From: Sipunculus nudus
Lineage: Eukaryota > Annelida > Sipuncula > Golfingiida > Sipunculidae
NCBI GenBank assembly: GCA_026874595.1
Contig: CM049314.1
Span: forward strand, 24,377,729 to 24,441,728
DNA: 64,000 bases
Direction of reading: 5' to 3'
Part shown: piece by piece, positions 12,002-61,201 of the stretch
Numbering within the stretch: the first letter of the stretch is position 1
Layout of the letters: the number at the start of each line of letters is the position of its first letter
Made by a program: the position numbers and the translations under genes
Notes under the pieces: generated by a model
Seen by the model: only the letters and a program-made list of their open reading frames with translations
The model's database searches: none
What the model was told of the DNA's origin: nothing

Positions 12002-13915
12002 CTACACGTACAGCGTCAGCTGAGAGAGATCCTCACTGAGCTGTCGTCTGATCCTGTTTTTCACGTGACCAGACAGATTGTTGTACCACAGGGACAGCTT
12101 CCTGAGTCCCGCCATGTTTGGTGTCAGGTTGACGATTTCCTCCAGTCCGTCACCGAGGTTATTGTGGGACACAGAGAACTCTGTGAGAGTCTGACAGTTC
12201 TTTATAATCTCCAGGACGGCCCCGGCGTCACTAAGGTTACACCAGTACATCCAGATGAGGTGAAGCTGTTTTAGGTGAGAGACGCGCCGTGATAACTGTC
12301 TTGTACTCTCGTCTGTCATGTCATTCCATGACACGTTCAACCACATCAGGGACTGAGGCAGAGACGCCATCAGTGACGGCCAGGGGGCGCCAGGTACATC
12401 CCGTCCAACAGCCCTCCCCAGGTCCAGTGTTGTCAGTTGAATGTTGCTCGTTGTTAGGATGTGACTGAGCGTCCCCAGACCGGACACTGACAGGGAGAAC
12501 CACCCAAACCTTAACTCTGTGAGACGAGACATGTTACATACAGATGGCAGGACAGCTCTGTCTGTCACAGACGTGTAACCCCGGGCGGCATCCACAGTGA
12601 GGTGAGTGACACAGCCACAGTCACCTGACATGTATTGTATGTACACCGCCTCCCTGTATCTGTAACTGATCTCTAAGTGCACACGAGACGGAAGCTTCAG
12701 CTGAGCGTTCATGTTTTGAGCCTGGTTACTGAGCTGTAATGCAGGAATTATTTTAGCCAGATCTCCTTGAGGCCATTGAACAAATTTGCGTATTTCATCC
12801 ATTATCGCCTCCCCACCTAAACCATTCATAAACGTGTATATCATTTCTGACTCAACAAAAGCATTAACAGAACCATAAAACTTAATTAATAATTTCTTTC
12901 GCTTCCACCAGAAAGAATTAACAATGAAGTATGCAGTAAAAAATTCCTGCATTGTTTTATGAGGGAAGGCAACCATCTCCCCACCCTCCATGTTGCTCTC
13001 CCTCTTACTCAGGAAGCCCAGCAACCAGGCTTTTTCTCCAATTGTCTTGATCACTTTTTTATATAGAAATGTCAGCCGTAGCTTACCATCCTCAACTCCA
13101 CTGACACTGACCTTATTAATTTTCATTAAACAAGAATGATATTTTTTAATAATATTCCCAGATTTTGTGGGTTTATCATATTTTGATTCATACCGGTCAC
13201 AGATATATTCCACAAATTTCAGAAAAAATCCAGTAATTGTGTCAGGGAGAGAATTCTCGTGTGCCCAGAGAGTGCACATCAGTAATAAGATAGCAGGGAA
13301 GCGGCTCAGATCTGTCAGCTCCCCCGATTCTTTAATTCTAGCCAAAAGACTATCAGACTTAGATTGATCTATATGTTCAAAATAGTTATGTATGTACTGG
13401 GAGACACCTTCAGAATTAAATCCTTTCACCAACACATGATTATCTGGCAAGTATGCTCCGTCCTTTACATTAGGGAAATGGAAAGAAGGTGGATGTCTAG
13501 ATGTTATTAATAGAGTGGCCTCTCTGAGTATTTTTCTCTGTGCTATGTTTGTAATATCTTTGGAGGTGGACTCTAGATACTCATCATAGCCTTCTAAGAC
13601 TATGAGTGTGTCTTTAGAGAATTGTGACATCTTACTGTACAACAGACTGGCTGTTCCAAGTTCTATGCAATATTGATGCTGTATGACATCATGTAGCTTC
13701 ATTCCTTTCTTAACATATCTTAAAATTATAAGGAGAACATACTTAAATTTAGAAAATACAGTTTCCTCTTGTTCAGATATCTGGACACTCTTTTTCAGCC
13801 ATCTCCTTTGAACCAGCTTACACCACTTCATCGTCAGTTTCTGAACTAGGGTTGATTTGCCAGAGCCAGCCGCACCCTGCAGAAACACAAAGGTAGCTGC
13901 TCTTTCTTCAGATAC
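12002..13915 (-). CDS. NLR receptor, last coding exon (NACHT ATPase + LRRs)
   Basis: This large exon encodes residues 199-835 of a predicted 835-residue CARD-NACHT-LRR protein, a cytosolic sensor whose NACHT ATPase is expected to drive nucleotide-dependent oligomerisation. The acceptor is a pyrimidine-rich stretch ending in AG just right of 13915; reading starts in phase 0 with VSEERAATF and ends at TAG (12002-12004). Visible motifs: P-loop GAAGSGKST (about 212-220), Walker B LIVLEGYDEY (302-311), sensor-like TSRHP (336-340), the proline of FPAILLLM (404-411), and FPHKTMQEFFTAYF (515-528), which matches the conserved segment after the winged helix in NLRs. From about residue 630 on there are several ribonuclease-inhibitor-type leucine-rich repeats (LTTLDLG, LMWLNVSWNDM, LKQLHLIWMYWCNLSD, LTEFSVSHNNL, LRKLSLWYNNLSG). 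The frame is intact and richer in GC than its surroundings. The usual DG of Walker B is EG here. Family assignment is firm; ligand and pathway are unknown. Confidence 0.96.
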   Translation of the reverse strand, partial: VSEERAATFVFLQGAAGSGKSTLVQKLTMKWCKLVQRRWLKKSVQISEQEETVFSKFKYVLLIILRYVKKGMKLHDVIQHQYCIELGTASLLYSKMSQFSKDTLIVLEGYDEYLESTSKDITNIAQRKILREATLLITSRHPPSFHFPNVKDGAYLPDNHVLVKGFNSEGVSQYIHNYFEHIDQSKSDSLLARIKESGELTDLSRFPAILLLMCTLWAHENSLPDTITGFFLKFVEYICDRYESKYDKPTKSGNIIKKYHSCLMKINKVSVSGVEDGKLRLTFLYKKVIKTIGEKAWLLGFLSKRESNMEGGEMVAFPHKTMQEFFTAYFIVNSFWWKRKKLLIKFYGSVNAFVESEMIYTFMNGLGGEAIMDEIRKFVQWPQGDLAKIIPALQLSNQAQNMNAQLKLPSRVHLEISYRYREAVYIQYMSGDCGCVTHLTVDAARGYTSVTDRAVLPSVCNMSRLTELRFGWFSLSVSGLGTLSHILTTSNIQLTTLDLGRAVGRDVPGAPWPSLMASLPQSLMWLNVSWNDMTDESTRQLSRRVSHLKQLHLIWMYWCNLSDAGAVLEIIKNCQTLTEFSVSHNNLGDGLEEIVNLTPNMAGLRKLSLWYNNLSGHVKNRIRRQLSEDLSQLTLYV

Positions 13916-25015: not shown

Positions 25016-25019
25016 ATAT

Positions 25020-33520: not shown

Positions 33521-33714
33521 CTTGAACATTTCCATGTAGTTCCCCAGTTTTTCACTTCTATCAAGTGTTTGTCCGCCGCTTGTAACCCACAGGAGATCGG
33601 TGAATATCCGATCAATTGGGACGTAGCACTTTTCTGTAGCCCATGCCCAGGTCTCCACCTTATCGCATCTTCTCAGCAGGGAATCCCGGATTTTCAGTTG
33701 AATGTCCTTTAGAT
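33521..33714 (-). CDS. NLR receptor, pre-NACHT exon
   Basis: A 194-nt exon with acceptor TTTCAG and donor AAG|GTGAAT. It enters in phase 1 (its first two bases complete a GAT codon begun in the previous exon) and leaves in phase 0. It encodes DLKDIQLKIRDSLLRR, then a stretch with WAWATEKCYVPIDRIFTDL and ending YMEMFK. In invertebrate NLRs the segment just before the P-loop has the same character: a helix, then VP-x-x-x-IFT-D-L. Joined to the 1.9-kb exon it reads YMEMFK-VSEERAATF and places the P-loop about 13 residues after the junction, which is the expected spacing. The intron to the next exon is about 19.6 kb and full of repeats; a small skipped exon cannot be excluded, but phase and domain order need none. 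Confidence 0.9.
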
Positions 33715-37772: not shown

Positions 37773-37836
37773 CTGGGGAAGACGTATCTTCATGGGATCC
37801 GCTCTGCGGTGCTGGTGGAAGTAGAGAACCTGATAC
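37773..37836 (-). CDS. NLR receptor, short linker exon
   Basis: A 64-nt exon with acceptor TTACAG and donor CCCAG|GTAAGG. It starts in phase 0 and ends after one base of a codon, exactly what the CARD exon upstream (phase 0 exit) and the pre-NACHT exon downstream (two leading bases) require. The encoded 21 residues, VSGSLLPPAPQSGSHEDTSS plus P, are proline/serine-rich and look like a flexible linker between CARD and NACHT. There is no recognisable domain; the support is the splice signals, phase agreement and position. It could be an alternatively used exon. Confidence 0.8.
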
Positions 37837-38799: not shown

Positions 38800-38943
38800 C
38801 TGGTCCCCCTGTAGTAAACCCACCAGGTGCCTTTGTTCGGTCTCCACTAGTGCCCGTAGGAAATTGAAAAAACACTCATCGTTCTTTCGTTTCAAAATTC
38901 GAACCAGATCAAACACCTGTTCTTCATCTGAACTGCCTTGGCC
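38800..38943 (-). CDS. NLR receptor, second CARD exon
   Basis: A 144-nt exon, phase 0 at both ends, with acceptor TTTACAG and donor GACCAG|GTGAGA. It encodes GQGSSDEEQVFDLVRILKRK continuing NDECFFNFLRALVETEQRHL and VGLLQGDQ. This is the C-terminal half of a caspase recruitment domain: the 'R..VFDLVRIL..K.DE.F..FLRAL.ETEQ.HLVGLL' pattern of helices 4-6 is characteristic. With the preceding exon it makes a full CARD of about 90 residues (roughly residues 20-112). CARDs recruit partner CARD proteins by homotypic contact, which suggests signalling through a CARD adaptor or caspase; the partner is not visible here. A harbinger-like MITE lies 46 bp past the donor. Confidence 0.93.
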
Positions 38944-39375: not shown

Positions 39376-39547
39376 CTTAATACACTGCACGTCGTGTTCA
39401 GTAAGCACAAGAAGGCTGATGAGCATCGCCCAGAAGCGGGCAGTGAGTTGGAGACCAGTCATCAAGGCGGGACGATGCTTGTTTAAAGCCTCCTTATGTT
39501 CCTCTGTCATCGGCTCTCTAGATAATTGTTTGCTTGTTTTCACCGTG
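39376..39547 (-). CDS. NLR receptor, first CARD exon
   Basis: A 172-nt exon with acceptor TTATTTTGCAG and donor ATTAAG|GTGATG (phase 0 exit). It encodes STVKTSKQLSREP, then MTEEHKEALNKHRPALMTGL, continuing through LTEHDVQCIK. The second part is the N-terminal half of a CARD; 'EEHKEALNKHRPAL...L..LLVLTEHDV..I' is the usual helix 1-3 pattern. The internal ATG (39508-39510) is a possible start giving an 816-residue protein. The AG acceptor upstream, and the fact that one leading base must be completed by two bases from elsewhere, point to an upstream coding exon instead. The MAEGYS exons at 50.6-52.1 kb end in exactly two spare bases (AG) and would give MAEGYSSTVKTSK. Confidence 0.92.
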
Positions 39548-41340: not shown

Positions 41341-41378
41341 AATACTATGGAAAACAAAGCGAGTAGTTTTTTTTTTTT

Positions 41379-43600: not shown

Positions 43601-44480
43601 TGTAGATCTTGTGATAGAGATTTGGCACCTGATCCGATGTGTTAATCTACAGACGTAAACCTTCTTTAAAAGGTGCTATTGGCAATTTCTCTGACCTTTA
43701 CGTTATAAAATTCCAATATCACAATGAATTCAATAAGCGCTTCTGTTATTATTACAGCTGGTTAGGTCTCACATTCATATAACACGTGTAAACTACCTCT
43801 CCCTTTCCTGCTCTCTCTCAAATATTTAAGGATGACCAGAGACCATTCAAGACCGTGTAGTCCAGCTAGGCCACCATCAACTGGTTATTATCTGTTTTAG
43901 CAACTGAACCGTTAAGTTCGTAGACAGTGAAAACACATCATTTCAAATTTCTCATGAACGGCTGGATGCATTGTCATGAAACTCAGAAAATTAATCCATC
44001 ATGAAGAACCTTAACTGCTGCCGGGGACTGTTGCCATAACCAGCAATATTTCTCATTTTTTTGTAAAAGTATCCATAAGACCCGGGAAGTTCCATCTTAA
44101 CCTGTTGAAACCAATTGTCATATTTGATCCAAATAATAATCCTTAAAATAATAGTAGCAGTACTTCTTTTCTTAAGTTATCTAAATATTTTGTCAAACTT
44201 AATTTGAAGGAAATACCTATATAAGTGTATATAGGGTACTGAAGCGATGGTGTATAAAACAGAAAGTCCGGGGGATCTAACGTGTGCCCATGTTATACAG
44301 ATCACAGAGGTTATTGATTTCCAAATTGATCCAAGAGAAATTCACGAACGAAAGTATGATTAATCGTGATTAACCGTGAAAACCTAGTGTGTTTGCTTAT
44401 CAGACACTGATACATGTATATTTACTCTTATTTTAACAATACGTCCTATCGGGATTCGCCTGGGCCTACGTCTAAAAAAA
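43600..44480. other. NLR intron 1; no gene seen
   Basis: AT-rich sequence without recognised repeats or splice pairs. Confidence 0.4.
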
Positions 44481-44489
44481 ATTGCGACT

Positions 44490-44830
44490 GAATATGTCCT
44501 ACCAAACCAGAACATAATGCATCTTGTAAAACACAGCAGGATAGTTATTTACTCCCTAAACATGGTAACTGTTTAAGGTAGTGAGTTTTTCTAGCACATT
44601 AATCAAAATTTTATTTTATACCAGAAAATGGATCGGATTTAATTGCATCATATGAAATCATTACATTAAAAATTTTGTCCCATTTTGCCCGTGAAACATT
44701 TATGTCGTGTATGCACTGGTGATTTAATTTTCAAATTAGGCAGATCGTAAGGACAAAAATATGGGTGGTTTTAACTATTTACTGTTAGCCAAAAGGGTAT
44801 ATTGAACTTCCTTTCAATGGAATGCATTTA
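44490..44830 (+). repeat. Family A internal fragment
   Basis: Follows family A order: 'CATAATGCATCTTGTAAAA', 'CAGGATAGTTATTTACTCCC', 'AACATGGTAACTG', 'TATACCAGAAAATGGATC', 'AAATTTTGTCCCATTTTG', 'TGATTTAATTTTCA'. No hairpin end. Confidence 0.6.
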
Positions 44831-44999
44831 GGTAGCCCCGCATATGGGATTTCAGTTTCGTTGTATTTTTGCAGCTGAGTGTCATGAATCATGACCTGCT
44901 TGTTTATAGTGGGGTTCTTTCAGTTCATTCAGTTCTGTTCTATTTTATTAGTCACAATCAGCAACCTCATTTTGCTAAAATATCTACACACACTATAGC

Positions 45000-45760
45000 T
45001 CATTGTGTTCCTCTAGACTTTCTCCATGCAATGGTCTGGTCAAATGTCATCTCCGATGTATCAGTGTGTCTGTATATCTGTCTGTTTGTAAAGTTGTCCT
45101 CAATTTCGCTTGTTTGCTGGTTCTTGTGCTTTGCATATACCATTCTACAGGACACAGTTCTGAAGGAATCCTTTTGAAACTGGTTTATCTTATGTCTTAC
45201 ACTAAAACCTCAAAAATGTTTTTTTTTTTTTATTTTTAGAAAATAGCCGCTTGGGGCGCAGCATTCGAAACAATATCACATGGGTTTTTTTCGCCAATTC
45301 TCTAAAACTATTAACCATAGCTTCATAAATTATAGCTCAACTTTTGACCTGTTTGCTGGTTCTTGTGTCTTACATATACCGTTCTACAGACCCCACGTGT
45401 GCAGGAATCCTTTGGAAACTGGTACATCTTATGTCCTACACTAATATATCTAAACTATTTTTTTTTTCGGAAAATAAACGCTAGGGGGCGCTACATACGA
45501 AACACTACAAGACAGCCTTTTGATCGTATCTCCCAAACTATAAACCTAAGCTACATAAATTATACCTCAATGTGTTTCTCTTTTCTTTCCCCAGCTGATG
45601 GTCTATTCAATTGTCATCTCTGATCTCTCAGTGTGTCAGTATGTCCGTCATCATGTCAGTTGTCGTCAAATTCGCCTCCCTGTTCGTTCTTTCGTCTGAT
45701 ATTTGGCTTTCCACAGGCTAGATTTTATAAACAGTCCCTCTGAATGTTATACTGTTAATA
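45000..45760. repeat. Local duplication of about 240 bp
   Basis: 'GTTTGCTGGTTCTTGTG', 'CATATACC.TTCTACAG', 'GGAATCCTTT.GAAACTGGT', 'CTTATGTC.TACACTA' and 'GAAAATA..CGCT.GGGGCGC' occur near 45110-45265 and again near 45350-45500. Confidence 0.7.
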
Positions 45761-46885
45761 CAGTTCTAGAAGTTCTTATGTCTTTTAGACTAAATAGTCC
45801 AATGGTAAAGGTCAAGGTCATAAAAAAATCTACAAAATAGTTTTTTTTTCTTCAAATCTTCATCAAAATTTATTGTAGCCGCAAAAACTGTTCCTCATTT
45901 TTCTCACTATTCCATGGCCTTTCTTCTGGTATGAAGCTGTTTTAATCTGCTGTTACAATGGTTATGCATTTTTTGGGAAAATTTATGATATCCAAACATA
46001 TGGGGTCTCATTTATCTAAGGTTGTCACTTAGCTAGAGGGGTTTCAGGCACTATTGGAACAGTTTCACCGTACTTATTACTAAATCTCAAGAAATCTCGT
46101 ACCGTTTCTCGTCAAACGGGATTTCACAACATTTCACTTTTTTCTCTCTACAAGCCACCAATCTCAAGCAATCACTCTAAAAGTTATACAGTTGATAGAA
46201 AAACGGAACTCCTGCAAGTCTTATGTTTTTAGTAGAGATAGGTCAAAGCTCAAGGGCAAAGTCACCAAAAAAAATATTATTTTGCTCATATCTACAGCTC
46301 ATATCTATAGCTCATTTTATTACACTTTGCATCTCCCATTCTGTCTGTCTGTTTCTATTCAATTTTCGGCAAGCGCTCAACCTATGGTCGTCTAGTTTTT
46401 AAAAATTCTTTCGTTGGATGAAACCCCCTCCATTTTTAAGCCAGCTCAATCAAGTATATAAATATCTGAAGATGTTCACTCGACCAACTCCTCAATATAT
46501 GATCCTTATCTAATTTCACCCTTTTTTGTATGAATAGACTGGCTGCGCAGTTACCCTTCAAGCAGACGCGATCGCCTCTCATCGACTCTTTATGGTGATT
46601 TAATGGACAGTGGTACACCGTGTCAATACATATTTGAGTAGGTCTGATACAGAGATACCGTATTTCATTCCGAGCAATGCTCTACCTGTATGTCGTAAAA
46701 AGTGAAATAAAGCGAGGAAAATTCCGCAAGGCCTATAGGTCATATGAATTCTACAAATCAAAAAGTTACAATTGACTTACCTTGCTCTTAATGAAATGAC
46801 ATTTGCTTTCAAATACGTGTGCAATTGTTTACGTGTCTTAACATACATTTATAGTAATTGATTTTTATAATATTATATTTATAAT
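45761..46885. other. NLR intron 1; no gene seen
   Basis: Mixed repeat-like sequence. Short ORFs on both strands lack recognisable motifs. Confidence 0.4.
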
Positions 46886-46888
46886 ATT

Positions 46889-47950
46889 AGGGTTCCGCTT
46901 TAATAAGCGGATGCCGTAAAGTACTCACAATGTCCGTTCGTCTGTCCGTCAGTCACCATTTTTTTCCGGATTGGATTTGCAAATGAATTTCAAATTTGAC
47001 TTCTATATTGCCCACCACAAAAGCGATTTTAATTTAGGGATCAGTAGGTCAAAGTCACAGGACCCATAACTTTATAAAGAGTGTGGATACAAAGGTCAAT
47101 GTCACATGGATCATCTGTCCGCTAGTTGGTTTCATAACTCCAGTTTGGATTGACTCATTAGCTCCAAATTAGACTTTTCTATGACCCACCAACAAATTTT
47201 CGGTCAGGAGATTAAAGCTTAAGCTCAAAGGAACCACTCTTTTAAACAGATTGTGGATGCACTACAGGCCAAACTCTTTTCGTCACAACATCTTCCACAT
47301 GTGGCACACTGTCAAGGAGGGAATATGTGTCAAAGATCAAGGTATTTGACCCATCTGTTCACAAATTAGTTTATTTACGATAACTCCAGATTGCGTGGAC
47401 CGGTTGTCTTCAAACATTATTAATTAAGGGCTCACCACTTTAATATGATTCTTTTGGATTTCTAGGCATGGGGTAAATGTGAAAGTGACAGGACCCACAT
47501 TTTAAAAATATTGTGTATGCATTGTATATCAAACTTTTCGTCCCAGAGCTTCCATCTTTCATATATACCGATTTGCCCAAAATGGAGGGAATCTATAGAT
47601 TTTGAGGTCACCAGGTCAAAAGTCAAGGTCATTGAACCCACCTTAAAAAAGATTGTATATTTTTTAAGCTAAAATCTCTACCAAACTATCAATATGGTAA
47701 GACAATTGTAAATTTTGAAATCCTTATCTCAAAGGTCAAGGTCACTGCACCCACTCTTCTAAATAGTTTGTAGACACATTTACGCCAAAGGTTTAATTCC
47801 AAATCTGCACGTCTTGCATATGGTTTCCCTGGCAATAGGAGAATACTTTCAGTTTGAGGATACAAGGTAATAGGTCAATGTCACACAACCCACTTCTTGA
47901 AAAAGCACATAGACATTCTATTAATTTTGACATCATAAACTCAAAAACCA
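46889..47950 (+). mobile_element. Element opening with CCGCTTTAATAAGCGG palindrome and AGGTCA-rich body
   Basis: Begins with the inverted repeat CCGCTT-TAAT-AAGCGG, then GTCCGTTCGTCTGTCCGTC. The body has diverged units containing 'AAGGTCAAGGTCAC', 'AACCCACTCTT' and 'AAA.ATTGT..AT.CA', each roughly 140 bp. It is related to the array at 17095-18560 in opposite orientation. Confidence 0.7.
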
Positions 47951-48698
47951 CGGCTGCATGCCCATCCTGCTGATTTATGTGCTGACCAGGCTAACAGTTA
48001 AATCAGGTGTAATATTGTCTCTCGTGCTTGGATGTTCCAGCCATATACACACAATTAGCACTGATTCAAACCATAACATATTTGTTCAGTTGTTAAAATA
48101 CTGGTTTGAGTCAGTTCCCTCTCAGCATGTGATCAGGTCCTTTATTATTTTCAAGCATCGCTCAGCCTGTTAGTTTATGATCTTTTTGAGGGATCTTTCT
48201 GACCTGTCAGTGTGTACTATATTGCTTCTATATAAATGGCCTACCTGCTATATAACCTTCGTCCTTGTTTACTTTTACAAAAGTGGCACTTCCATTTATT
48301 ATGGACAATAAATGTCAGAACAGTTGCCCACGTCGCTCAAGCTAACAGGTGACATATGAACGATCGGGGGTATGCAACACGCACTCACATAAAACATATA
48401 ACAAGCGATAACGCCTAATCTATTCGGCCTTACGTCATAGCATGCACATTTCGGACCCTTGGACTGGTTGCTCGAAAAGCGTATATATACTGACAACCGA
48501 GCTCGTTTATCAGATAGCTATGACACTTCATCTCTACATAAATAATATGTCCATTCTATTCCATGTTCGTAAGATTATTAATCAAAAAGGGCGTTGTTGA
48601 AGGCAAATGTTAGCTGATACAAATTAAGGTTAATGAAAATGTTTCTCAATATCTCAAATGGGTTTCTGATCAACTTGCGATTTTGTTTGTAAGTGACA

Positions 48699-48700
<2 letters not shown>
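47951..48700. other. NLR intron 1; no gene seen
   Basis: AT-rich sequence, no supported feature. Confidence 0.4.

Positions 48701-48759
<59 letters not shown>
48701..48759. repeat. (TA)n microsatellite
   Basis: Pure TA repeat of about 59 bp; the overlapping ORF on the minus strand (tyrosine-isoleucine run) is an artefact of it. Confidence 0.95.
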
Positions 48760-48762
<3 letters not shown>

Positions 48763-49094
48763 ATACATTATAAGATTGGTTGGGCCAATTATTAGTGTTG
48801 AATACTTGTAGAATTTCTTTAATGCTCTTTATTATGAAAAAGTTGATTAACAGATTCATAAGCATTAAGCAAAATATGTTACACACATATAATCATATTC
48901 CGTTGGTTTTATGGATTGTCACATATGTAACCGAGTTATCTGAATGTTATTGTTCCCATAAACGGATGTTTTCGATGGAGTATAAATTCTTGAAATATGT
49001 TATATACCGAGGCCAACATTCAGAGATTTGTGGAAAATTTAATTAGTTAAATACACTGCATTCAGTCCATGCGTGTGCCGGAAATCGTAAAGGA

Positions 49095-49165
49095 CCTGCC
49101 CAGGGGTGTGTTTAGAGGGGGGCACAACAGGCGTGCCCCCCCCCCCTTAAAATCCGTTTAACATT
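49095..49165. repeat. MITE-like fragment
   Basis: GCCCAGGGGTGTGTTTAGAG with GGGGGGCAC opposite GTGCCCCCCCCC suggests a short inverted-repeat element remnant; the outer end is unclear. Confidence 0.35.
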
Positions 49166-49519
49166 TTTTAGGAGGCGCCCAATATCGTAAGTTGTCAGTG
49201 CCTGCCGAAACCTAAAATGCAAAATAAGCTCATACAGTCGTATTTCTAAGGCCCAGACCCTAGTTAAAAAACTAGTTTAACTTTAGTAACAGTATAGGAT
49301 GACACCCTTTATTGGCTATAATGGACCAAACAAAATCCTTATTGGAAGCTGCTGCTCATGCATAGGACATATCTTGTTATGCATGGAGCACGACATTCCT
49401 GGAGGTTATAGCCAATAGATACCGGTTCCCACTTCTGTGATTAGTTCAGGTAACGTCATAATGTGGTGTTTAGTCCCCGTCGTGGTTTATCTAACTTAAA
49501 GCAGACCCTATGAAAGGGG

Positions 49520-50300
49520 GGGGGGGGTAGATCGATCAGGAATTTCTTATCGAGTAGAAAAATATGTTTGGAAATGTACAAGTCTCATATTGCTCTATTT
49601 TAGCTCACATGAATTTTAGTTAGGAGACCCCGCGAGGTTCCGGGTCGGTAAGGTGTGTCCTATAAAGGGCAAAAAGAAATGCACATCATGTTTGCCATTT
49701 AAGAAGCATGTGTACGGGGTTTTCAATCGATACTGAGGAGCCTATATTAAAGGACCCGTACGGGCCGGGAATTTCCTATAGGACCCAACGATATGTTTGA
49801 AAATGTAGAAGTAACTTAGTTTTATTATAGCCTAGGAATTCCCTATAAAATACAAGATGTTTATGTCATGTGATTAACGAAAAACGTAAATATAGAGTTT
49901 CTAATAGTGAGTGATACAAAGGGGCCCGGCTCGTCAGGAGTTTCCTATGTGAAGAACACCAGAAATTACTTGAAAATGAGAAAATCTCTCTCTCAAACAG
50001 CCCGAGCTCGGGCTTTGTCTCCTATAGGGCTCAGTTAAACCTAATTGTTAATGCGGAACTTCGCGTTTTCTCATTGGTTTTAGCTTATAGTTTTAGATCG
50101 GGCCTATGGGACTCGGGGGCCAAGGAGTTCCCAAGGGCACAAGAACAGACATGACGATGAAGTCTAAAATTTAAGTCTCTCATTTGTCTTAAATAGCATT
50201 AGCAAGTTTTAACCAGTTGGGTCCAAAGGGCCTTGATAGGCCAGGAGTTCTTGAGGCCCATTAGAATGCATGGAAATCGTAATCTTTCGTTTCCGGAAGT
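49520..50300. repeat. Degenerate tandem repeats beside the promoter array
   Basis: Variants of 'CAGGAATTTCCTATAGGA', 'ATGTTTGGAAATGTA' and 'GGGCC(C/T)GTACGGGCC' recur near 49537, 49767, 49937, 50122 and 50235. Spacing varies (about 110-230 bp) and divergence is high. Confidence 0.5.
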
Positions 50301-50611
50301 ACATGCCGTTTTCCCAATTTATTCATGTAAGCTTGCAGCTTTCATGCAGCTTGAAGTGAATGTGTCATTTAGGTGGAACAGAGCATACTATGGACAAATT
50401 TTCGGCATGTAATATTTATGTATAATGCACAATAAATGGACAGTCATGTAACAGGGGTTAGCAAATATTATTAGAGCCCACAGCGTAAAGGCTGCAGTAG
50501 AAAAAAAGTTAAATCAACTTTACTACCTCTTGGATAGTGTATACCAATGCGGTTGAATAAAATGAGTAAAACGTCAAGCGCATTGTATTGACAGGTAAAG
50601 ATAAAACTTAC

Positions 50612-50631
50612 CTGCTGTAACCTTCAGCCAT
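50612..50631 (-). CDS. Candidate first coding exon, copy 1 (gene-proximal)
   Basis: A 20-nt coding segment, ATG GCT GAA GGT TAC AGC AG, followed by a strong donor GTAAGT. It encodes MAEGYS plus two bases (AG). The next minus-strand exon at 39547 begins with the one base needed to finish the codon (AGC, Ser). It lies in a tandem unit of about 730 bp present three times. A TATA-like stretch sits 46-58 bp upstream of the ATG, so the 5' UTR would be only a few tens of bases. Assignment to the NLR gene about 11 kb away is inferred from strand, phase and the absence of any other candidate exon between. Confidence 0.6.
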
Positions 50632-50677
50632 ATTGAATTCTTGTTTCAAAAGAAGTATTTCTTTCACAGTCTCTGTC

Positions 50678-50689
50678 TAATATATATGG
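50678..50689 (-). promoter_or_regulatory. TATA-like box, promoter unit 1
   Basis: Minus-strand CATATATATTAG lies 47 bp before the ATG of first exon copy 1. The position is conserved to within 1 bp in the other two units, which argues for function over chance AT richness. Confidence 0.4.
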
Positions 50690-51342
50690 GTATAATAGAA
50701 AAGACGTTTCCTTTTTGATATTCACCTAACCGCAGCAAGAGGCAAACTGATAAGCGAACGCGCAAACCTTCCGTGTACGCCCTCTATGGTAAGACCCAGC
50801 AAAGGGGAGCGAGGAATTGTTGGTACACAGATCCAGGTACTTCGGTTGCTTGGTTGCGCTTCCAACGACCAAGTATCAGTTACTCTATTCACAATGAGAG
50901 GGGGTTCATCCGATAACCTCTGTAGAACTAAAAAAGTAGGACTTAATCAACTTATGTGACACAATCACGTGCTCCGAATCATTATTTGAAGTAATGGTTC
51001 AAGGACAGACCAGAGATTGTGAGGAGGAGTTTATTTTTATTCGTAGTCCTTGCTCAATCCTTATCGGTACACAGTACATGCACACACAACTTGTCTAGAA
51101 AAAATTATTTTATTATCTGTGTTGTCTCTGGGTCGGAGACCTTAAAAGCAGCTAATCCTATTTAATTATAAATATATGATGTGGGTAGAGTACTGAGTGT
51201 TCTTAACTAACAGCGTAATGGCTGCAGTAGAAAAAAAGTTAAATTAGCTTTACTACCTCTTTGATAGTGTATACCAATGCGGTTGAATAAAATGAGTAAA
51301 ACGTCAACCGCATTGTATTGATAGGTAAAGATAAAAATTTAC

Positions 51343-51362
51343 CTGCTGTAACCTTCAGCCAT
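51343..51362 (-). CDS. Candidate first coding exon, copy 2 (middle)
   Basis: Same 20-nt coding segment as copy 1, encoding MAEGYS plus AG, inside the second tandem unit. Its donor reads GTAAAT instead of GTAAGT and is expected to be somewhat weaker. Upstream sequence is retained for the full unit length, including the TATA-like stretch. Confidence 0.55.
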
Positions 51363-51407
51363 ATTGAATTCTTGTTTCAAAAGAAGTATTTCTTTCACAG
51401 TCTCTGT

Positions 51408-51420
51408 CTAATATATATGA
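51408..51420 (-). promoter_or_regulatory. TATA-like box, promoter unit 2
   Basis: Minus-strand TCATATATATTAG, 46 bp before the ATG of first exon copy 2; same arrangement as unit 1. Confidence 0.4.
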
Positions 51421-52088
51421 GTAGAATAGGAAAGACGTTTGCTTTTGGATATTCGCCTGACTGCAGCAAGAGGCAAACAAACTGATAAGCGAACGCGCAA
51501 TCCTTCCGTGTACGCCCTCTGTGGTAAGACCCAGCAAAGGGGAGCGAGGAATTGTGGGTACACAGATCCAGGTACTTCGGTTTCTTGGTTGCGATTCCAA
51601 CGACCAAGTATCAGTTACTCTATTCAAAATGAGAGCGGGGTCATCCGATAACCTCTGTTAAACAAAAAAGTAGGACTTAATCAACTCATGTGACACAACC
51701 ACGTGCTCCGAATCATTATTTGAAGTAATGGTTCAAGGACAGACCAGACATTGTATGGAGGACGTTTAATTTTATATGTAGTCCTAGCTCAATCCCTATG
51801 GGTTCACAGTACATATACACACAACTTGTCTAGAATAAATTATTTTATTATCTGTGTTGTCTCTGGGTCGGAGACCTTAAAAGCAGCTAGTCCTATTTAA
51901 TTATAAATATATGATGTGGGTAGAGTAATGGGTGTTCTTAACTAACAGCGTAAAGGATGCAGTAGAAAAAAAGTTAAATCAACTTTACTCCCTCTTGGAT
52001 AGTGTATACCAGTGCGGTTGAATAAAATCAGTAAAACGTCAAGCGCATTGTATTCACAGTATAGATGACAGGTAAAGATAAAACTTAC

Positions 52089-52108
52089 CTGCTGCAACCT
52101 TCAGCCAT
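52089..52108 (-). CDS. Candidate first coding exon, copy 3 (distal)
   Basis: Third copy of the 20-nt coding segment with donor GTAAGT. One substitution changes Tyr5 to Cys (MAEGCS). The unit is shorter than the others: after the TATA-like stretch the sequence jumps to the unit's far end (GTTCTTAACTA), so about 500 bp of upstream sequence is missing. It may be the oldest, or a partly disabled, copy. Confidence 0.5.
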
Positions 52109-52153
52109 ATTAAATTCTTGTTTCAAAAAGAGTATATCTTTCGCAGTCCCTGT

Positions 52154-52166
52154 CTAATATATAAGG
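52154..52166 (-). promoter_or_regulatory. TATA-like box, promoter unit 3
   Basis: Minus-strand CCTTATATATTAG, 46 bp before the ATG of first exon copy 3. Sequence beyond it is deleted relative to units 1 and 2. Confidence 0.35.
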
Positions 52167-52389
52167 GTAGAATAGGAGTAGGTGTTCTTAACTATATGCA
52201 CATTTTGTCGAGAAAATATATTTTTTTATTTGTTGATGATTTACACAATGGGACGCTTGTGCTGTATCTTGGTTGTAAAGAATATCCGGGGATTTCCTTG
52301 TATAAGAAGAGTTGCATAGACACTTCTCGGGTATGACGGTGAAAGTCAGTCACGTCCTTAATATGCATACATTACAATATTAATAATTT

Positions 52390-54060
52390 TTTTAGCAAAC
52401 CTGTGAGCTTATGCGATGGCGCAGCGTCGTCCGTCCGGCGTTCGCGGTCCGGCGTCCACCGTCCATGGTTGTAAGTAGGTTTCCCCATGCTATCTCAGAA
52501 ACCGTCAGAGCTAGCAGCTCCTAAGTACACGTAAGAGTTAGTCACATAATAGACTTAATCGGATTAAGCTTATTTTTTTGGTATCTGCATGAACTTAGAT
52601 TTTATAGGGGAAAAGCTTAAAAACCTTTACAATTCTTCTTCTCCAGTACTGTCCAGCCAAATTGTCCAATAATAAAAAGAAATAATCCGAGAAACGATCT
52701 ATCTCAAGTTTGTTCGAATGGTCCCAGTTCGGTGATTTTTGGCCGAGTTATAGGAAGTTGAACTTAGTAATTTGTCCCAAAAAGCATTTAAAATCAAAAT
52801 CTCAGAGACGGCTGGAGCTATCAAAACCAAATGTTATGCCAATTTTGGTCATATAAGTCTCGTTTAAAATTGAGGTATTGGTGGCGCCACCTGCATCGGC
52901 CTTTTGTATGGGGGTCATCAGTGCATGTATCATACTGCATGAGGGCTACAAAAAACTTCTTCTCACAAACCATACGGCCAAATTGTTTAATATCGCAAAA
53001 AATTGTCATAGGGTAGTGCTTTCTTAAGTTTGTTCATATGGTCTCTGTTCAATCAGGGGAGTTTAGATCAGTGGCTACAAAGATCTTCTTCTCAAAACCA
53101 CTGGGCCAAATTCTTAAATCTCACACATAAATGATCCTCAGTTGTTGGTAATTCAAGTTTGTTCAATGTTTTTTTAGTGATTTTTGGCTGAGTTATGGAA
53201 AGCTGAACTTAGCGAGTATGCTGTATTTTCCTATTTGAGTTATAAACCTGCAAAACATTTTTTGACTGACGCTTCTGAAGCCAGTTTGTGTAATATTCTA
53301 CAAAAATAATCCCCAGAATATATTCTTGTAATAATTGACTTTTATGATTCCAAATGAATGATTTTTGGCTGAATTATGGAGGGTGAATTGAGTCGCTTAA
53401 CCAAAATATTAGCTGTGTGAAGCAATTACATCTAGCATGGCACCAGTTTATTAGCTTCTATTACATCATACCACTAGACATTTTGATTTCAGGTTATCAA
53501 TTGATGATATTGACAAGAATGTTTTCAAAAGCTTTTAAAAAAATTTAGAATAATGATTTAAATAAGTCATCATACCAGATCTTTTAATAAATTAATGCCC
53601 TTTTCTCAGAGTTTTAGTCCACTATATTCAGGAGAGGTGTGATATTAGACTTCATCCATCCCTCACTTTACCTATTTCACCCTGACTTTGGCGGATACAC
53701 ATTGTCACTTATCGACTACTCGTTTTTTAGTTGTTTCATGCATCTGTGCACATAGCCTAACAGTGGTTTCACGTATCTGTCTGAAATTTTTCATGTCCAT
53801 ACATGTTTGATGGCCTTCCCGTACGCAAGACTGGTGGTGCCACCTACAATTATTTTCGTGTTGTGCGCACCCATTGACATATTTGCAGTGACTTTTGTGT
53901 AATTGGTGCATGCACACAGGTTCAAAATGTTCAATGCTTGAATTATACATATACATGTCACACATGTACTTGAAAAGTAACGGTCCAGCATGAAAACATT
54001 ATACCTGGTGTATATCCCATTGCACAGGTTCACATTTAGGTCTTGTTTTGATTAATAAAT
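52390..54060 (+). repeat. Family B dispersed repeat, longest copy
   Basis: Opens TTTAGCAAACCTGTGAGCTT and GTCGTCCGTCCGGCGTTCGC. It continues with the family B phrases (AGAAACCGTCAGAGCTAGCA; TTTTTGGCCGAGTTATAGG) and ends with the GCGCCACCT / CACATGTACTTGAAAAGTA / TTGCACAGGTTCACATTTAGG tail. A TTGGCGGATACAC ... CGACTACTCG segment at 53690-53730 matches, inverted, the left end of the 61.08-kb element. No coding capacity. Confidence 0.65.
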
Positions 54061-54479
54061 TCTTAGACCGACACTACAAATCAACATAATTGCAAAGCTC
54101 TCTCGTCACAATGGACAGAAGTAAACATCATTCCCATAGTACAGCGTATGCAACAGTAGCTGGTAGCTGATATTTGGTGCAGGCTAATAAGGACAGTTAA
54201 AACAAACATGTCACTTGATTTATATATGCAGTCTTCTGCATGTAGCTTACTTGCAAACGTTTACCCGAACTAAATACATAGAAGCGATCTTCTGACTTTA
54301 GGCCATCATAATTTAATATTTATAGCCAGACACATTAAATGCCCTTGGTTTAGTGTTGATTTAAAAATCAAAGACTCCACAGAATGGCGGCCAATTAACA
54401 GAGAGACAAACAATGGTTTCTCAAAGTTAGTTAAAATCTGTACTGATAACTCGCCCGTCAATCTGTTAACGTTTGGAAA

Positions 54480-55620
54480 GCGTTGGACCGCCCATTCCAA
54501 AATTCAACATGCAGTTAGATGTTCTTAAATTCCCCTCGTCGAAATTCTGGAAAGCCTCAGTTTGTTATTAAAAACATATTGTTTATGTTCATATTTTGAA
54601 TTTTTTTTTCATCATATATTTCCCATGCACGTGCTAGTTTTAGGTCATTAATGTATACTTTATAGAGGTTATGGGTACAAACATAATGTACCTTCTTAAT
54701 ACATCAATATAGCTTTATGATCACCTAACATGGTAATTGCTTTAGCTAGAAAGTGTGTTTGTGCATGTTACTGTTTCTAACTCAGATTTATTTTAATACC
54801 AGAAATTTGATAAGAATTTTGTAATTTATTAAGTTATTAGCATAAATGCAAAATGGTTACCTTAAATTTTGCCTAACTTTGACAATGGCTTTTTGTAATT
54901 TAAATACTGTTGATTTATTTTTTACCAGTGGTGAAGTGCATGCACAGGGCTTTGTATAGTGACTATTGCTGTAGTGTAGTGTAGTTGCTTTGTTTACTCT
55001 CTTTCAGCTGCAGACGCCATAAAGGGCAACTGACCGAAAAGAAGATCGAGTGCGTAAGTCCTTCCTGGTGGTACATAGCCTCTTCTAAGTCAAGTCCTTT
55101 ACTGTACGGTCCCTCCCTGTGGCTCACCACGGGAAATGTGTACCCGGGCAAAATTGTAAGGAATCTCGGAGTAGGTAGAGCCCCAGAGGTGCAGTGTACA
55201 GGCCCACTTGCATGTGGACACCCCTGGAACTTACTAGTCAACCCCAATCACACACACACAGACACACTGCCTTGTGGGGAAGGCCTTTTTGGCAAAGGCT
55301 AGGAGTGGGGTAACCCCACAGAGACCTAGAGTGTTGAAGACGGAGATGCCAAGCCGCAAGGCGCACTCTGATAACCATGGTGCCACGCACTTCAGCCATA
55401 TGACTCTTGGAGTTGGAAATTTTCACCTGGTGCACATATAGGGATTTAGGCTTTCACAATCTGAAATGTGAAACCTATTTCAATTTCGATAAAAATTATA
55501 ATGTCTCAAAATGTTCAAATTAAAAAAAGGAGAGGTGAATGAATAATTTAACATTTTTTAAAAATGTATCTATAAACTTAAATAAAAATGGAAATGCTTG
55601 AATGTGTGGATCTTAGACGA
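54480..55620 (+). repeat. Family A fragment interrupted by a GC-rich insertion
   Basis: Family A phrases in order: 'TTCAACATGCAGTTAGATGT', 'GTTCATATTT', 'TTAGGTCATTAATGT', 'CATAATGTACCTT', 'CACCTAACATGGTAATTGCT', 'AAATTTTGCCTAACTTTG', then a break near 54920 and resumption near 55420 with 'ATAGGGATTTAGGCTTTCACAATCTGAAA'. Confidence 0.6.
54922..55422. mobile_element. GC-rich insertion of about 500 bp, identity unknown
   Basis: Clearly GC-richer than the family A copy it splits. The bordering phrases ATTTTTTACCAGTGG (left) and ATTTTCACCTGGTGC (right) are similar and may be a decayed target duplication, as left by retroposition. It holds a CTCTCTTTCAG acceptor-like site and a (CA)n stretch (55249-55266). 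Overlapping ORFs on both strands show no recognised domain. It could be a retroposed transcript or a SINE. Confidence 0.45.
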
Positions 55621-56990
55621 AAGGTCTCCCTATTATTTTGCTTTATTAACCCTATAGAGTCCTTCAGCCTTGAAAGGTGTTGACGAAACTGCATATAGAT
55701 CTGCATATATTCTGTAATCCAAAGTCAGTAAATATAAAGACTATGTATATGTCAATATCATGATAAAATCATCATTAGAGATTATAAAGTGTTCCTATAA
55801 TGCACCATAGCAACGTGAATTATTTACTTAAGTCAATGTTTCCGCTAAATCCTAATACGGCGGAATTTCCTAGACACATGATAATTTTGTCCTTCCTTTG
55901 TATACCTTCACTTCTTAATGTAATGGCCAAGATGACTTGATGCTCATAATTCGATAATAAACATTAAATAATTAAAATAGCCAATAAGCGGCTTTGCAGT
56001 TGTGGGAAGGGCTGTCTATCAGTCAACGATCAGTTACTGCTAAGAGTTTCGCTCATAAAAAAAAAACGAAATTCGTTCTGCCGTCATTCGCTGAAAAGGT
56101 TCTGTACGAGTGGACCAATCTGTCCGAATCCCAATGGCTCGGGTATTCAGGCGTGGTGGCTGCCTCTCTTTTGACTAATCGAAAATTTTGTCCTTTCATC
56201 CCTATCAGATGGTCCGGAGCTAACCTGGGAATACATCTTGGATAAATCTTCATTTTCTCCATACAATATATATAAAGGCCAAATACCTTGAAAATAACTT
56301 GTTTATCTTTCGTCGTTAGCGAGGGAGCTGGGTCGGGCCTCGGCTTGCGGAATTCAAATTGATTAGCTTTTTTGTTCGTTCGTGCTCGAAGTCTCTGGGA
56401 CAACATGCGTAGCATTGGGAAAAGATATGGTTAAGAAATTGTTGCGCGGGAGAGGGCATAAGAAATCTGAATGCTGATTCCAATCTCGCAAACTGGCTGA
56501 CCAATAGAGAACGTTAGAATTCCTGGTCGCATATCACGGGAGCTAGTGTACCAGTTTATTTAATATGTGTACTTATTTCGCACTCTTGTACACCTTGGTT
56601 TGTGTTTCCATTGGTTTGCAACAGAGAAAAAAACAAATACCAAACAAGCAAATGCCTGAAATTTATGTCCTCCGCTTCTGTCTCTTGTTATTTTAGCTTC
56701 ATGTGATCTTCACGCTTGCCTTCTCAAGCCTTCTCTGTTTAGGTTTTATTTTCCCCTGAAGATGTCTGCACATGTCATAGCGCCGATGTTTAAGTTTTCA
56801 TTGTCCCCTGAAGATGTCTCCACGTGAAATAGTTTTTGCTGTGAATTAGGAACAAAAGGTAATGTTTTTTGTTTGTTTCGGAGTGGTTGATAATAAATAT
56901 TCAGACATACACTCCAAAACTAATGCCAACCAATGTTTTCATTAGAGCAATCACTGACCCAAATTTGAATGAAATCGGAAAATATTTAGG
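55620..56990. other. No gene recognised
   Basis: The 55990-56500 stretch has balanced composition and overlapping ORFs on both strands (for example a 120-residue minus ORF at 56053-56415), but none carries a motif I recognise and no splice pair stands out. The rest is AT-rich. Confidence 0.35.
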
Positions 56991-57120
56991 AAAGTTATGG
57001 CACGAAAACATAAATCCTGACGGACGGACAGACAGAGGGACAGGCAGACAAACCCATATCAATATCTCCCAATCCGCGGAAGCGGGGGACAATAACTTTC
57101 ACGGGATTGAATAGCGAAAA
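56915..57120 (+). repeat. Short dispersed repeat with GGAC tract
   Basis: 'AATTTGAATGAAATCGGAAAA', 'GTTATGGCACGAAAACA' and 'GACGGACGGACAGACAGAGG', then CAATCCGCGGAAGCGGGGGA. This is the typical layout of invertebrate dispersed repeats in this window, in the orientation opposite to the GTCC-type tracts. Confidence 0.5.
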
Positions 57121-57199
57121 AGGCACGACAAAATAACCCTGTTCTTTGTAAGACAACCCTTTGAGGTAAAGTCCCACAGGCTTGGTGTTCACTTCAGAA

Positions 57200-58260
57200 A
57201 GGTAATAAAATAGTTCTAATTCTAAAATTCAAATTTGCAAAATAGTTACTACTATACAAGAAGGCTGCTGGTGCAATATACTTGAAATTTGGAACCCATC
57301 CCCTTATGATTCCTCAAAAGAGTTCAAAATAATATATTACCCGTATAGAAAACATAATACGCACATGGTTGTAAGACATAAAATCTCATGACATAAGATT
57401 AATATGAATCTTATATGAGATATCAAATCACGCGTAAAGCTGTGGAAATAACATTCGGCAAAATCAACGCGGCTATATCTGTATTATAAGTAATACTGTC
57501 CAAATATTTTGTTATATATGGATAAAATTATTTTAGAGAACGCAACATGGTATATGATGAATGTGAAATAGACCGTATGTTATAATAAAATGTGGCTTCC
57601 TAACGATTACTATGGGATATTAGCTGTATTCTTTGGAAGTTTGCTTGCCTGTTGCAAGCTCAGTCGGACTGTAACCTATAATGATACGTTACAAGGACTA
57701 TGGCTGTAGGGTCTAACCTATTTTCTTATAAACTTAAGGCGTAGTCAATCGTTTACGATGTTGAAAATGACTACACGCATATTTATAGACACACACCATG
57801 CAGCAAAGTGAATATTAATTTGGCAATGTATATGAGTGATATATAACATGTTACATTGATAACTATTTCTTACTTATAGGACGTAACATGTATAAGTCTG
57901 CGGGCTAAATACGACTAGCAGAACGATATTAAATTAATAATACTGAATCATGGGGCTGGTTTATCATGACTATAGCTATTTATATACGTTGTTATACCTT
58001 CCTAATAATACTATAGTTACATTGCATATTATATCATGTTGGATTCTTAATATGAATATGGCTGTATATTATTTCTTTTCATGAAGCAAAATTAGTGTTA
58101 TGAGGCAAGCGTAATATGACTACAGGTGTTTAAACAAAACCGACTGGTATATCGCTGATTGTTTAGTCCTCCATATCATACACCGTATATTTATTCCTCG
58201 TGCTAAGGAAAGCATAGTCATAGTAAACAGATATAATATACATATAACTAATAAATTTAA
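57200..58260. other. AT-rich, no gene seen
   Basis: Nothing supported. Recurring 'TAATATGA..ATGGCTGTA' and 'GACTA.AGCTAT' phrases around 57700-58140 hint at an old degenerate repeat, but no period is clear. Confidence 0.4.
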
Positions 58261-58264
58261 ACAG

Positions 58265-58422
58265 ACCGTCTGGGGGCATATCAACATTTCCTGATGAAGA
58301 AAGAACGAGATCTGCGGCCTCCACGGGTTATCTCCACGTGTGGTTTAAGGAACAGTAGTGGAGGGAGTGGTGCTGATTGTCCCTTGAAAATCATAATTCA
58401 CGATCCATCAAACGGAAACGGG
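58265..58422 (+). CDS. Possible isolated internal exon, unknown protein
   Basis: A 158-nt open stretch bounded by a branch-point-like ACTAAT and TTTAAACAG on the left and GGG|GTAAGA on the right. The open frame reads RLGAYQHFLMKKERDLRPPR, then VISTCGLRNSSGGSGADCPL and KIIIHDPSNGNG. Local GC rises within the segment and drops at the donor. No domain is recognised. The frame stays open past the donor to 58629, so a 111-residue ORF from the ATG at 58294 is an alternative reading. No partner exon found in the window. Confidence 0.3.
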
Positions 58423-58779
58423 GTAAGAAATAGTAATTCCCCTTTCTTCCACATTAGTTACATCTTTTCATATATTAATAAAATTATGAGTCACAGTTAT
58501 GTAGGCCACTTTACTGTTTTGGTTAAGGAAAAAACATGCCATAGACTCTGGGAGGAACATCGACTTTATAGGTACTTTAATTTCTTGAGACACATATCAG
58601 TTTATTTACCATATTCACATGAACAGTAATCTTCATATATATCAAACATATGTCAGAAATTATTTTATCCTATTCCCTTTTCATCCGACAATTGTACATT
58701 TAGGTCAAACATCTAGCATCCTCCTAAAACTGCCTTGAAAGCATACATCTAAGGTCTTTTGATTGGAAACAAACCATTT

Positions 58780-61050
58780 TAGCTCAGCTGACTATAAGTC
58801 ATCTGAACTGCAAGGATGGTCCTTTGTCCGTCGTCCGTTTGACTGTCCGGCCATCCGTCCGGACGTCCTTTAACAAGGCACGAATTGAAACTTTTGGACC
58901 TACGAATCCGAAACTATACATACAGTTAAAAGTTCATAAGTTCTCCTAGAAAACCGAAAACTGTGTCACTGCGACTTCGTTCCTTTAAGAAATGAAGGAA
59001 ACCCCTCCAGTTTCCTTTCAAATTCTGTTTTCACACATCAAGACTTACTAATATCAAAACCACTGGTGTTGTTTTATACATATTTCACATAACTATTCCT
59101 CTATATGTTTCCTAAAGACATGCCATAAATAAAATTTATATTGTGTATATGTAGGAGTCATGGGTTCGAACGTAAGGTATATCGCCAAAATATCAGGAAA
59201 GCTAGTTACTTGTTGAAGCTAGGCAGCCTTCTTCAAGCATGCACCTTTATTTAATAAACACATAACTGTATGCCCGAAATTAGACAAGAATTTTGTGATT
59301 TAAGTAATTGATAAGCATATATGTAAAATCAATGCCTTAAATTTTATGCAACTTTGAATATGGTACATTTTTCCCCTGTACCTGTACACACTATTTATTA
59401 AATTTTCACAGCATAAATACCTAAGGATTAAATCTTTTAACGTCTGAAACTTGAAAGGAATCGATTAAAATGAGTAGCTTTTATTAAAGTTTTCAGACAC
59501 CATGTTAGGCATTTTTATACTTTAAATCAGCCTAGTACAATTCTGTGTAATGAGTGATGCAGCCCTCACCTCACCGCTATTTTGGGCCGCCGCCAGTCGA
59601 GTTGAGATCAAGCCGAGCCGCCGCTATTTCATTAAGCCAAAGTGAGCCGATCTTTTGGAGCTCAGTTTAAAAAGATACAGAAAGATCAATATTTTATATT
59701 TAAATTGTCCAAAACAAATGTTCAGGGTTTTATATTGTATCTTGTCGCTGAAAGTAACCGCGTGATTTTTTAGGTATGAAAGTTTTGGCTTATGAAACCT
59801 CCACTGACAAGGATTAACTATACTCGATATTTATTCACAAATTAGTTATATGTAAAATGAATACAATATGTCACACATAATATAGATAACGTGTTAGAAT
59901 AAATTGGGTACTTTGTTACATCGTCAAATGAATAGGCCTTCAGGACAATTTAAGCCAGCCGACGTCTTGCAAGCAGAATCGAGCAACGAAACTCGTCTTA
60001 CCGCTAAAGTCAGCCGTCTTTTTGTCTAAGCAAGCCGCATTTCTGTACCTAACACGACTCTCACCTGTGTTATAACCTGTTTTACTCCAGACAGTACCAT
60101 TGGTTTAGCTCAGCTAGGCCTCCCACTCCCCCCCCCCCCCCCGACTGGATGCATAAACTAGATGAATGTTATAATTTTCTCTATTAAATTCATTCTGGAC
60201 ATTTGCTACATTCTGGATTTTGTGTTAGATCTCATGGGCTTACAATGATTAAATTGCACATTTAATTGTGTCCACAAAGTGATGTATTGCTATAAAAGGA
60301 TGGATGTTCCCATTACAAAGAATTCCTAACTTCAGAAGAGTAAATACTTTCCGTTCTTAATTTTTGAATCAGTTGCCCCCTCATCCAACCAGCAGGGTGT
60401 ATAATTGATTTAAAAGGGTATTCTAATAAAATATACATAATCTTTTATTGTAATCTTGAAGAAGCCATGTTGTGGCATTATTTGTTTCAGTGCTGTTATC
60501 TTAAAAAATAATTTCCTTTTAAATTCAGTTAAACATTCTTGATTTTACAAAGTAATAAAATATATGTGTATGCATAATTGTACATGATATGAGCCAGATT
60601 GATAATGATGCTACTTACAGTTTTGAATTAACTTATAATTCCATATTTTTTATCATAGATCAATAAAATTTGTAAATAAAAAAAATAAATATGATAAAAA
60701 CTGGGATAAAATTGATATGCTTGAAAAATAAGGTTTAATTTCAACTTAAACTGATTATTTAGCTTACAGTGAAATCAGGGATCAGACCTTTCTGTCCTAT
60801 CAGTCCATCTATAAATATTTCATATATTCTAGAAATTTTCTCAAAACTTTATCGTTTTTTCATGGCAGTCACGCCAGAGTAATAGTATTTAAATAATTTA
60901 TTTAGTACTTTACTATAACCAATAGGAGTGCCACGTCTTCTTACCTTTTCAGATGCTAATATATATATAAATAAAAGAAATAACAATAGAAATAAGTAAA
61001 TTTTGTATTTGCTAAAATTTTTCAAAATTCAACTGAGTTTATGTGTAGAA
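58780..61050 (+). mobile_element. Family A element, diverged copy with internal insertion
   Basis: Starts TTTTAGCTCAGCTGACTATA then AGTCATCTGAACTGC and CCTTTGTCCGTCGTCCG. Family A body to about 59560 and again from about 60110 (poly-C tract, then GATGCATAAACTAGATGAAT). Between them is about 550 bp bounded by GCCGCC...CAGCC-type sequence (59575-60060), probably another insertion. The right end is eroded near 61050. Confidence 0.7.
59565..60070. mobile_element. Insertion with AGCCG-rich ends
   Basis: The left side has GGGCCGCCGCCAGTCGAGTT and AAGCCGAGCCGCCGC. The right side has AAGCCAGCCGACGTCTTGCA, AGTCAGCCGTC and AAGCAAGCCGCA. These recurring AGCCG motifs on both flanks, absent from other family A copies, suggest an inserted MITE-like element. 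No clean terminal inverted repeat found. Confidence 0.4.
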
Positions 61051-61201
61051 CTAGAATACGGGTAGTCGACAAGCGACTACGTGTATCCGCCAAAATCAGA
61101 GAAGGACGGGTGAAGTGAGGCATGGATTGAGTGGCAAGGGGATATAGAGTTACATATGTAAAATATTAGTATTGGATCTCTGCCACATAAACATGATTGT
61201 A

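Follow-up and report, generated by a model that had tools for sequence, protein, structure and literature searches.

The window, i.e., the whole 64-kb stretch of Sipunculus nudus DNA analyzed here, carries on its minus strand a gene of 835 codons and about 40 kb (gene A), which is predicted to encode a CARD-NACHT-LRR receptor. Downstream of its putative first exons, the gene body comprises five exons:

39376..39547, minus strand: exon 2, first half of the CARD, its phase completing AG|C
38800..38943, minus strand: exon 3, second half of the CARD
37773..37836, minus strand: exon 4, linker VSGSLLPPAPQSGSHEDTSSP, found by a phase-fitting exon search
33521..33714, minus strand: exon 5, linker ahead of the NACHT domain
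12002..13915, minus strand: exon 6, NACHT domain and putative leucine-rich repeats, with the stop codon

Exon 4 was sought because exons 3 and 5 do not fit together in phase, and the search returned two overlapping candidates, namely 37836-37773 and a shorter segment contained in it. Both candidates recur in paralog C, and the peptide was also found in paralog B, which failed the donor rule of the scan (both paralogs are described below). In the protein version starting from copy 1 of the first exon, Pfam assigned residues 26-110 to a CARD (PF00619, 4.1e-08, above cut-off) and residues 208-379 to a NACHT domain (PF05729, 4.3e-15), and the P-loop GAAGSGKST is present in the translation. The putative C-terminal repeats matched LRR_6 at 4.5e-4, which is below the curated cut-off of this family, as well as NLRP3 chains (best 5.1e-06). 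A sequence search of the PDB with the CARD gave a best E-value of only 0.14.

Upstream of exon 2 lies an array of three repeat units, each with a putative first exon:

50480..51209, minus strand: repeat unit 1 (upstream region, core, exon, intron start; by alignment)
51210..51944, minus strand: repeat unit 2 (by alignment)
51945..52175, minus strand: repeat unit 3, truncated, restricted to core, exon and beginning of the intron (by alignment)
50612..50631, minus strand: copy 1 of the first exon, coding part, MAEGYS + AG, donor GTAAGT
51343..51362, minus strand: copy 2 of the first exon, coding part, MAEGYS + AG, donor GTAAAT
52089..52108, minus strand: copy 3 of the first exon, coding part, MAEGCS + AG, donor GTAAGT

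The start codons of the three copies (52108, 51362, and 50631 on the minus strand) are each located within the 11-mer ATGGCTGAAGG, for which no further occurrence was found in the 64-kb window. Every coding segment consists of 20 nt and ends with CAGCAG followed by the donor, and the TATA element TATATATT ends 47 bases 5′ of the ATG in each of copies 1, 2, and 3. The TATA-like box, leader, 20-nt coding segment and 5′ splice site which the first-pass annotation had reported for each copy were thus found where it had placed them, and the same applies to the weaker donor of copy 2 (GTAAAT vs. GTAAGT in copies 1 and 3) and to the exchange Tyr5Cys in copy 3, which is visible as MAEGCS in the translation. 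Its description of a 730-735 bp unit occurring three times has to be modified: three units are present, but the exon-to-exon spacing amounts to 731 and 746 bp, and the likeness of unit 3 to the other two units is confined to about 52175-51945. Units 1 and 2 are identical in 686 of 736 aligned columns, 7 of which are gapped; counted as substitutions, copies 1 and 2 differ at 43 of 729 columns, plus gaps. The tandem triplication of the first-exon units is confirmed as real. On the minus strand, two acceptor-like sites TTTTTTTCTACTGCAG, situated at about 50491 (near the end of unit 1) and at about 51221 (near that of unit 2), were considered as possible beginnings of a second exon and discarded, since the frame following them stops soon after (judged by eye); unit 3 reads CAT where these sites have CAG.

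The exon at 39547 opens with one base after its acceptor, and its frame joins the AG at the end of the first exons. In agreement with the earlier claim that these bases complete each other in frame, each of the three first exons combined with the five downstream exons yields one open frame of 835 codons without any stop.

To what gene the short segments belong was addressed by a search of the genome (1.43 Gb, 153 contigs) with a pattern composed of exon plus donor, allowing for up to 3 mismatches. This search returned five sites, namely the three array copies and one site each upstream of the paralogs B and C, while the backwards control of the pattern gave 0 sites genome-wide. In paralog B, whose CARD is 95% identical, the first exon lies about 3.4 kb upstream of the CARD exon and in paralog C (CARD 86% identical) about 9.8 kb upstream, in both cases on the same strand. 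It reads ATGGCCGAAGGTTATAGCAG|GTAAG in both genes, with MAEGYS kept and two differences from copies 1 and 2, both of them synonymous. A genome search with the CARD exon gave 36 matches, 30 of which were made into loci, and B and C proved to be the closest ones besides gene A. In line with this, the CARDs of the three genes cluster as a single clade (96/86) in the locus tree, which was computed from 29 of the 30 loci (L037 was left out as a misfit to the anchor) over 46 columns and is poorly resolved elsewhere. The acceptor and phase of the CARD exon are the same in all three genes. Since the MAEGYS exon precedes exactly the two closest CARD paralogs, the array segments are most likely the first exons of the CARD-NLR gene A, so that the corresponding assignment of the first-pass annotation is well supported; the pairing of exon 1 with a CARD-NLR, as predicted here, is conserved. 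Furthermore, of 27 other loci that were retrieved, 26 have an in-frame Met a short distance ahead of the conserved Met of MTEEHK (20 of them reading MAS). Genes A and B have no such Met, which implies that the upstream exon would supply the start in both of them, whereas C does have one (VMTSK).

Other users of the first exons were considered as well and rejected. A Pfam search at E 0.01 for another gene served by them, covering 28803-60399 of the minus strand and 40403-60199 of the plus strand, only found one half of the known CARD, below cut-off. Searched in three frames at the same threshold, 38803-60399 of the minus strand and 40403-60199 of the plus strand yielded no other domain. Paralog B cannot use the exons of the array either, because in the direction of transcription the whole of B precedes the array.

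The fetched DNA of B and C, including about 20 kb upstream, contains one first exon each. A weak second likeness to the end of the first exon and its donor was seen about 145 bp downstream (L040 8861-8827, E 0.23; L045 1144-1188, E 0.076), with no matching frame by eye. Paralog B carries a stop in the NACHT domain at residue 169, and paralog C a stop in the CARD exon together with a disrupted NACHT exon. Hence both are possible pseudogenes, and the presence of exon 1 in them is no proof that it is used today.

With regard to the array itself, the longest run identical between units 1 and 2 extends from the TATA through the donor GT:

50610..50688, minus strand: core of copy 1 from TATA to donor, its 79 nt unchanged in copy 2 (by alignment)

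A hypergeometric test of this 79-nt span gave P = 0.0028, with the span picked from the observed run itself; it nearly equals the span from TATA to splice site that had been named beforehand in the first-pass annotation. For any identical run of this length anywhere in units 1 vs. 2, P is 0.135. A scan for a TATA, an ATGG with a purine at -3, and a phase-2 donor, which is descriptive because the rule was set after the units had been seen, detected exactly the three copies on the minus strand of the window and 0 sites on its plus strand. When the region 39548-52200 was shuffled (n = 200), three sites occurred in 0 of 200 shuffles and the maximum was one. Copy 3 differs from copy 1 at 10 of 70 leader positions and at 4 of 132 intron positions (Fisher P = 0.006), and this excess of leader change could be due to relaxed constraint or conversion.

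Farther upstream, an 18-bp block is found in two of the units:

50748..50765, minus strand: promoter block TTGCGCGYTMGCTTATCA, copy 1, common to paralogs B and C
51483..51500, minus strand: promoter block TTGCGCGYTMGCTTATCA, copy 2; absent at copy 3

The block is located at -134 in copy 1, -138 in copy 2, -112 in B, and -121 in C. Even with 3 mismatches allowed, the window contains only these two sites (shuffle mean 0.09), so that copy 3 is without it. Genome-wide, TTGCGCGYTMGCTTATCA, which was defined from copies 1, 2, B, and C themselves, has four exact sites corresponding to these four copies, and its backwards control has 0 sites in the whole genome. A single site with 1 mismatch exists elsewhere, on another contig (G000:C1:108067485-108067502, L059). 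The sequence GCTTATCA, read on the opposite strand, presumably contains a GATA-type site. Because both paralogs as well as copies 1 and 2 carry the block and copy 3 does not, the difference is best described as a loss of upstream sequence in copy 3, as the first-pass annotation had proposed. The sequence upstream of copy 3 was also compared with the 500-bp upstream region as a possible diverged version of it, but 33 of 500 shuffles scored as high, too many to demonstrate such an origin. Immediately upstream of copy 3 there is a dispersed repeat (52386-53498), which also occurs at 22389-22880 and 25019-25607 and resembles pieces of the loci L041, L046, and L047.

Between B and C, the sequence 5′ of the exon agrees in 100 of 111 aligned columns. 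The upstream flank of copy 1 is weakly like those of B and C (76/110 and 69/115 columns in a permissive alignment, with 40 and 30 gaps set aside), and for the downstream flank of the exon 68/110 and 77/110 columns agree with B and C, again in a permissive alignment with gaps set aside. In place of the TATA, C has ACATTCAAC, i.e., the element is not kept, and B has ACATATAAC (judged by eye).

In addition to the three open copies, a profile covering -200 to +150 of B and C matched the window at one more position in an nhmmer search:

48240..48325, minus strand: fourth first exon, decayed, with start codon lost and a 2-bp insertion; includes part of the leader (nhmmer)

This match at 48325-48240 has an E-value of 6.2e-4 and 13.1 bits (E 0.0022 in the larger set), compared to 2.8 bits for the best match in 355 kb of control DNA, which consisted of the reversed window plus nearby and paralog-region loci in forward and reversed orientation, minus the two loci holding exon 1 of B and C. 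As its ATG is replaced by AAG and two bases are inserted, this copy cannot start the protein. In whole-region local alignments it beat 500 of 500 shuffles each vs. B and vs. C, and 466 of 500 vs. copy 1. Tests of the flanks only were not significant (upstream scores reached by 73/500 and 25/500 shuffles, downstream scores by 414/500 and 478/500), and the identification accordingly rests on matches that take in the exon. The copy number given by the first-pass annotation therefore stands for the open units, while it had missed the fourth, decayed first exon.

For the history of the array we infer an ancestor with a single promoter and first exon, as in B and C. Gene A would then have gained copies, of which the one at 48.3 kb died and the outermost one lost its upstream block, now adjoining a repeated element shared with other loci. 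The distance between copies 1 and 2 (43/729) is below the A-to-B synonymous distances of exon 2 (0.28) and exon 3 (0.23), which fits a duplication after the A/B split; the dS of 0.039 in the NACHT exon is at odds with such a clock. In comparison to B, dN vs. dS is 0.033 vs. 0.276 in exon 2, 0.112 vs. 0.227 in exon 3, and 0.020 vs. 0.139 in exon 5. For the NACHT domain, dN is 0.040 and dS 0.039, with no sign of purifying selection. The dS of the NACHT exon (12002-13915) to paralog B (L042) is 0.039, against 0.14-0.28 in exons 2, 3, and 5, as if the NACHT had recently been exchanged between A and B.

The explanation we favor, with a probability of roughly two in three, is that the promoter and tiny coding first exon of gene A were tandemly duplicated and that alternative starts now feed one CARD-NACHT-LRR gene. 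Transcripts would begin inside any one of the units, and splicing would connect the 20-nt exon with the CARD exon (39547) across 11-12.5 kb, intervening first exons being skipped, so that the same protein would result from all copies except for Tyr5Cys via copy 3. Copies 1 and 2 would represent equivalent, complete cassettes, copy 3 with its upstream block lost is probably weak, and the 48.3-kb copy is presumably dead. The likely effect would be additional or more robust transcription, or an opportunity for regulatory divergence between the copies. Splicing, exon skipping, promoter activity, and the effect on expression are here inferred from the arrangement of the DNA.

Alternatively, only one promoter (that of copy 1 or 2) might work, with the other copies being passive by-products of duplication or conversion that decay like the fourth. 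This appears unlikely, if well conceivable, as one copy has already decayed, copy 3 shows an altered residue and is without the promoter block found in the others, and the donor of copy 2 is weaker; however, none of the three copies has lost its TATA, start context, frame, or donor, and the 79-nt core of copies 1 and 2 is unchanged while their units differ at 50 of 736 columns. It is quite improbable that gene A itself is no longer functional, which would leave the first-exon copies without consequence. The nearly equal dN and dS of the NACHT vs. B and the stops in both nearest paralogs could be taken to point in this direction, but gene A is open through all six exons, and dN is smaller than dS vs. 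B in exons 2, 3, and 5. Highly improbable is a role of the segment as a conserved seven-codon uORF (MAEGYSR-stop) or as a non-coding leader, with translation beginning inside the CARD exon, at Met20. Without splicing, the frame is indeed closed within the donor (GTAA), Met20 is located just ahead of the Pfam CARD match (which starts at residue 26), and C has an in-exon Met, yet the acceptor and phase of the CARD exon are shared by all three genes, and the upstream in-exon Met present in 26/27 other loci is missing from A and B. False haplotype copies are usually much longer than 730 bp, and an assembly or haplotype artifact with only one true unit is hardly to be expected given the 43 substitutions in 729 columns plus gaps between copies 1 and 2 and the different upstream flank of the third copy.

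In the consulted portions of the literature, the closest counterpart of the duplicated promoters and first exons proposed for gene A is PEP1, the FLC orthologue of Arabis alpina, in which parts of the promoter, the first exon and parts of intron 1 are tandemly duplicated and two overlapping transcripts arise, one from each duplicated first exon (PMC7927791); these transcripts are differentially expressed (PMC3527215). Similar to PEP1, gene A has promoter, first exon, and the start of intron 1 repeated before one gene body, with copy 3 lacking the promoter block. Unlike PEP1, a plant MADS-box gene with two copies of about 2 kb and demonstrated transcripts, gene A is an animal NLR with units of ~0.73 kb, three open copies and one decayed copy, and its transcripts are predicted. 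Among NLR genes, CIITA is described with the promoters pI, pIII, and pIV, each with its own first exon; two of the resulting isoforms are extended at the N-terminus, by 101 and by 24 residues, and the remaining one is not (PMC7866136). Gene A resembles it as one NLR gene with three first exons, its promoters being predicted, but while the N-termini of CIITA differ, the exons of gene A are near-identical tandem copies in which only residue 5 differs. For NAIP, alternative promoters derived from LTRs were reported (PMC1781489). NAIP and gene A are both NLR-superfamily genes with several promoters (predicted ones in gene A), and NAIP shows promoter turnover between lineages; there, however, retroviral LTRs supply the promoters, whereas in gene A the gene's own promoter would have been copied. 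Abalone and oyster are among the animals from which CARD-NACHT-LRR NLRs as such have been reported (PMC11508797). When the whole array was used as a DNA query, only its own place was found, and as the same search missed B and C its reach is limited. In its predicted arrangement, gene A represents a well-supported further case of the PEP1 kind of layout, in an animal NLR. It may be the first promoter/first-exon multiplication in an animal NLR, with the open-access text consulted being too narrow to claim this.

Immune sensors are costly when over-expressed, so that copying the promoter instead of the gene would change dosage or inducibility with the protein unchanged. The locus offers a direct test of this, as three near-identical starts with scorable differences (Tyr5Cys, donor, leader) are found in one gene, with the single-start paralogs serving as controls and the dead start as negative. 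Because three cassettes are open, one is dead, and both close paralogs are damaged, one might go further and assume an ongoing birth and death of promoter/first-exon cassettes, whose number, varying between individuals, would tune the dosage and inducibility of the sensor, with the Tyr5Cys copy adding an N-terminus with its own stability or modification; this seems rather doubtful.

Concerning the surroundings, 29 of the 36 CARD-exon matches and 28 of the 30 loci are located at about 20.0-42.2 Mb of one contig (C9 of G000), which suggests a large CARD-NLR cluster on it. Two of the loci, L030 and L031, are identical across the 46 residues compared. Within the window, a 280-bp unit is present in four tandem copies at 61190-62297, with 92% matches.
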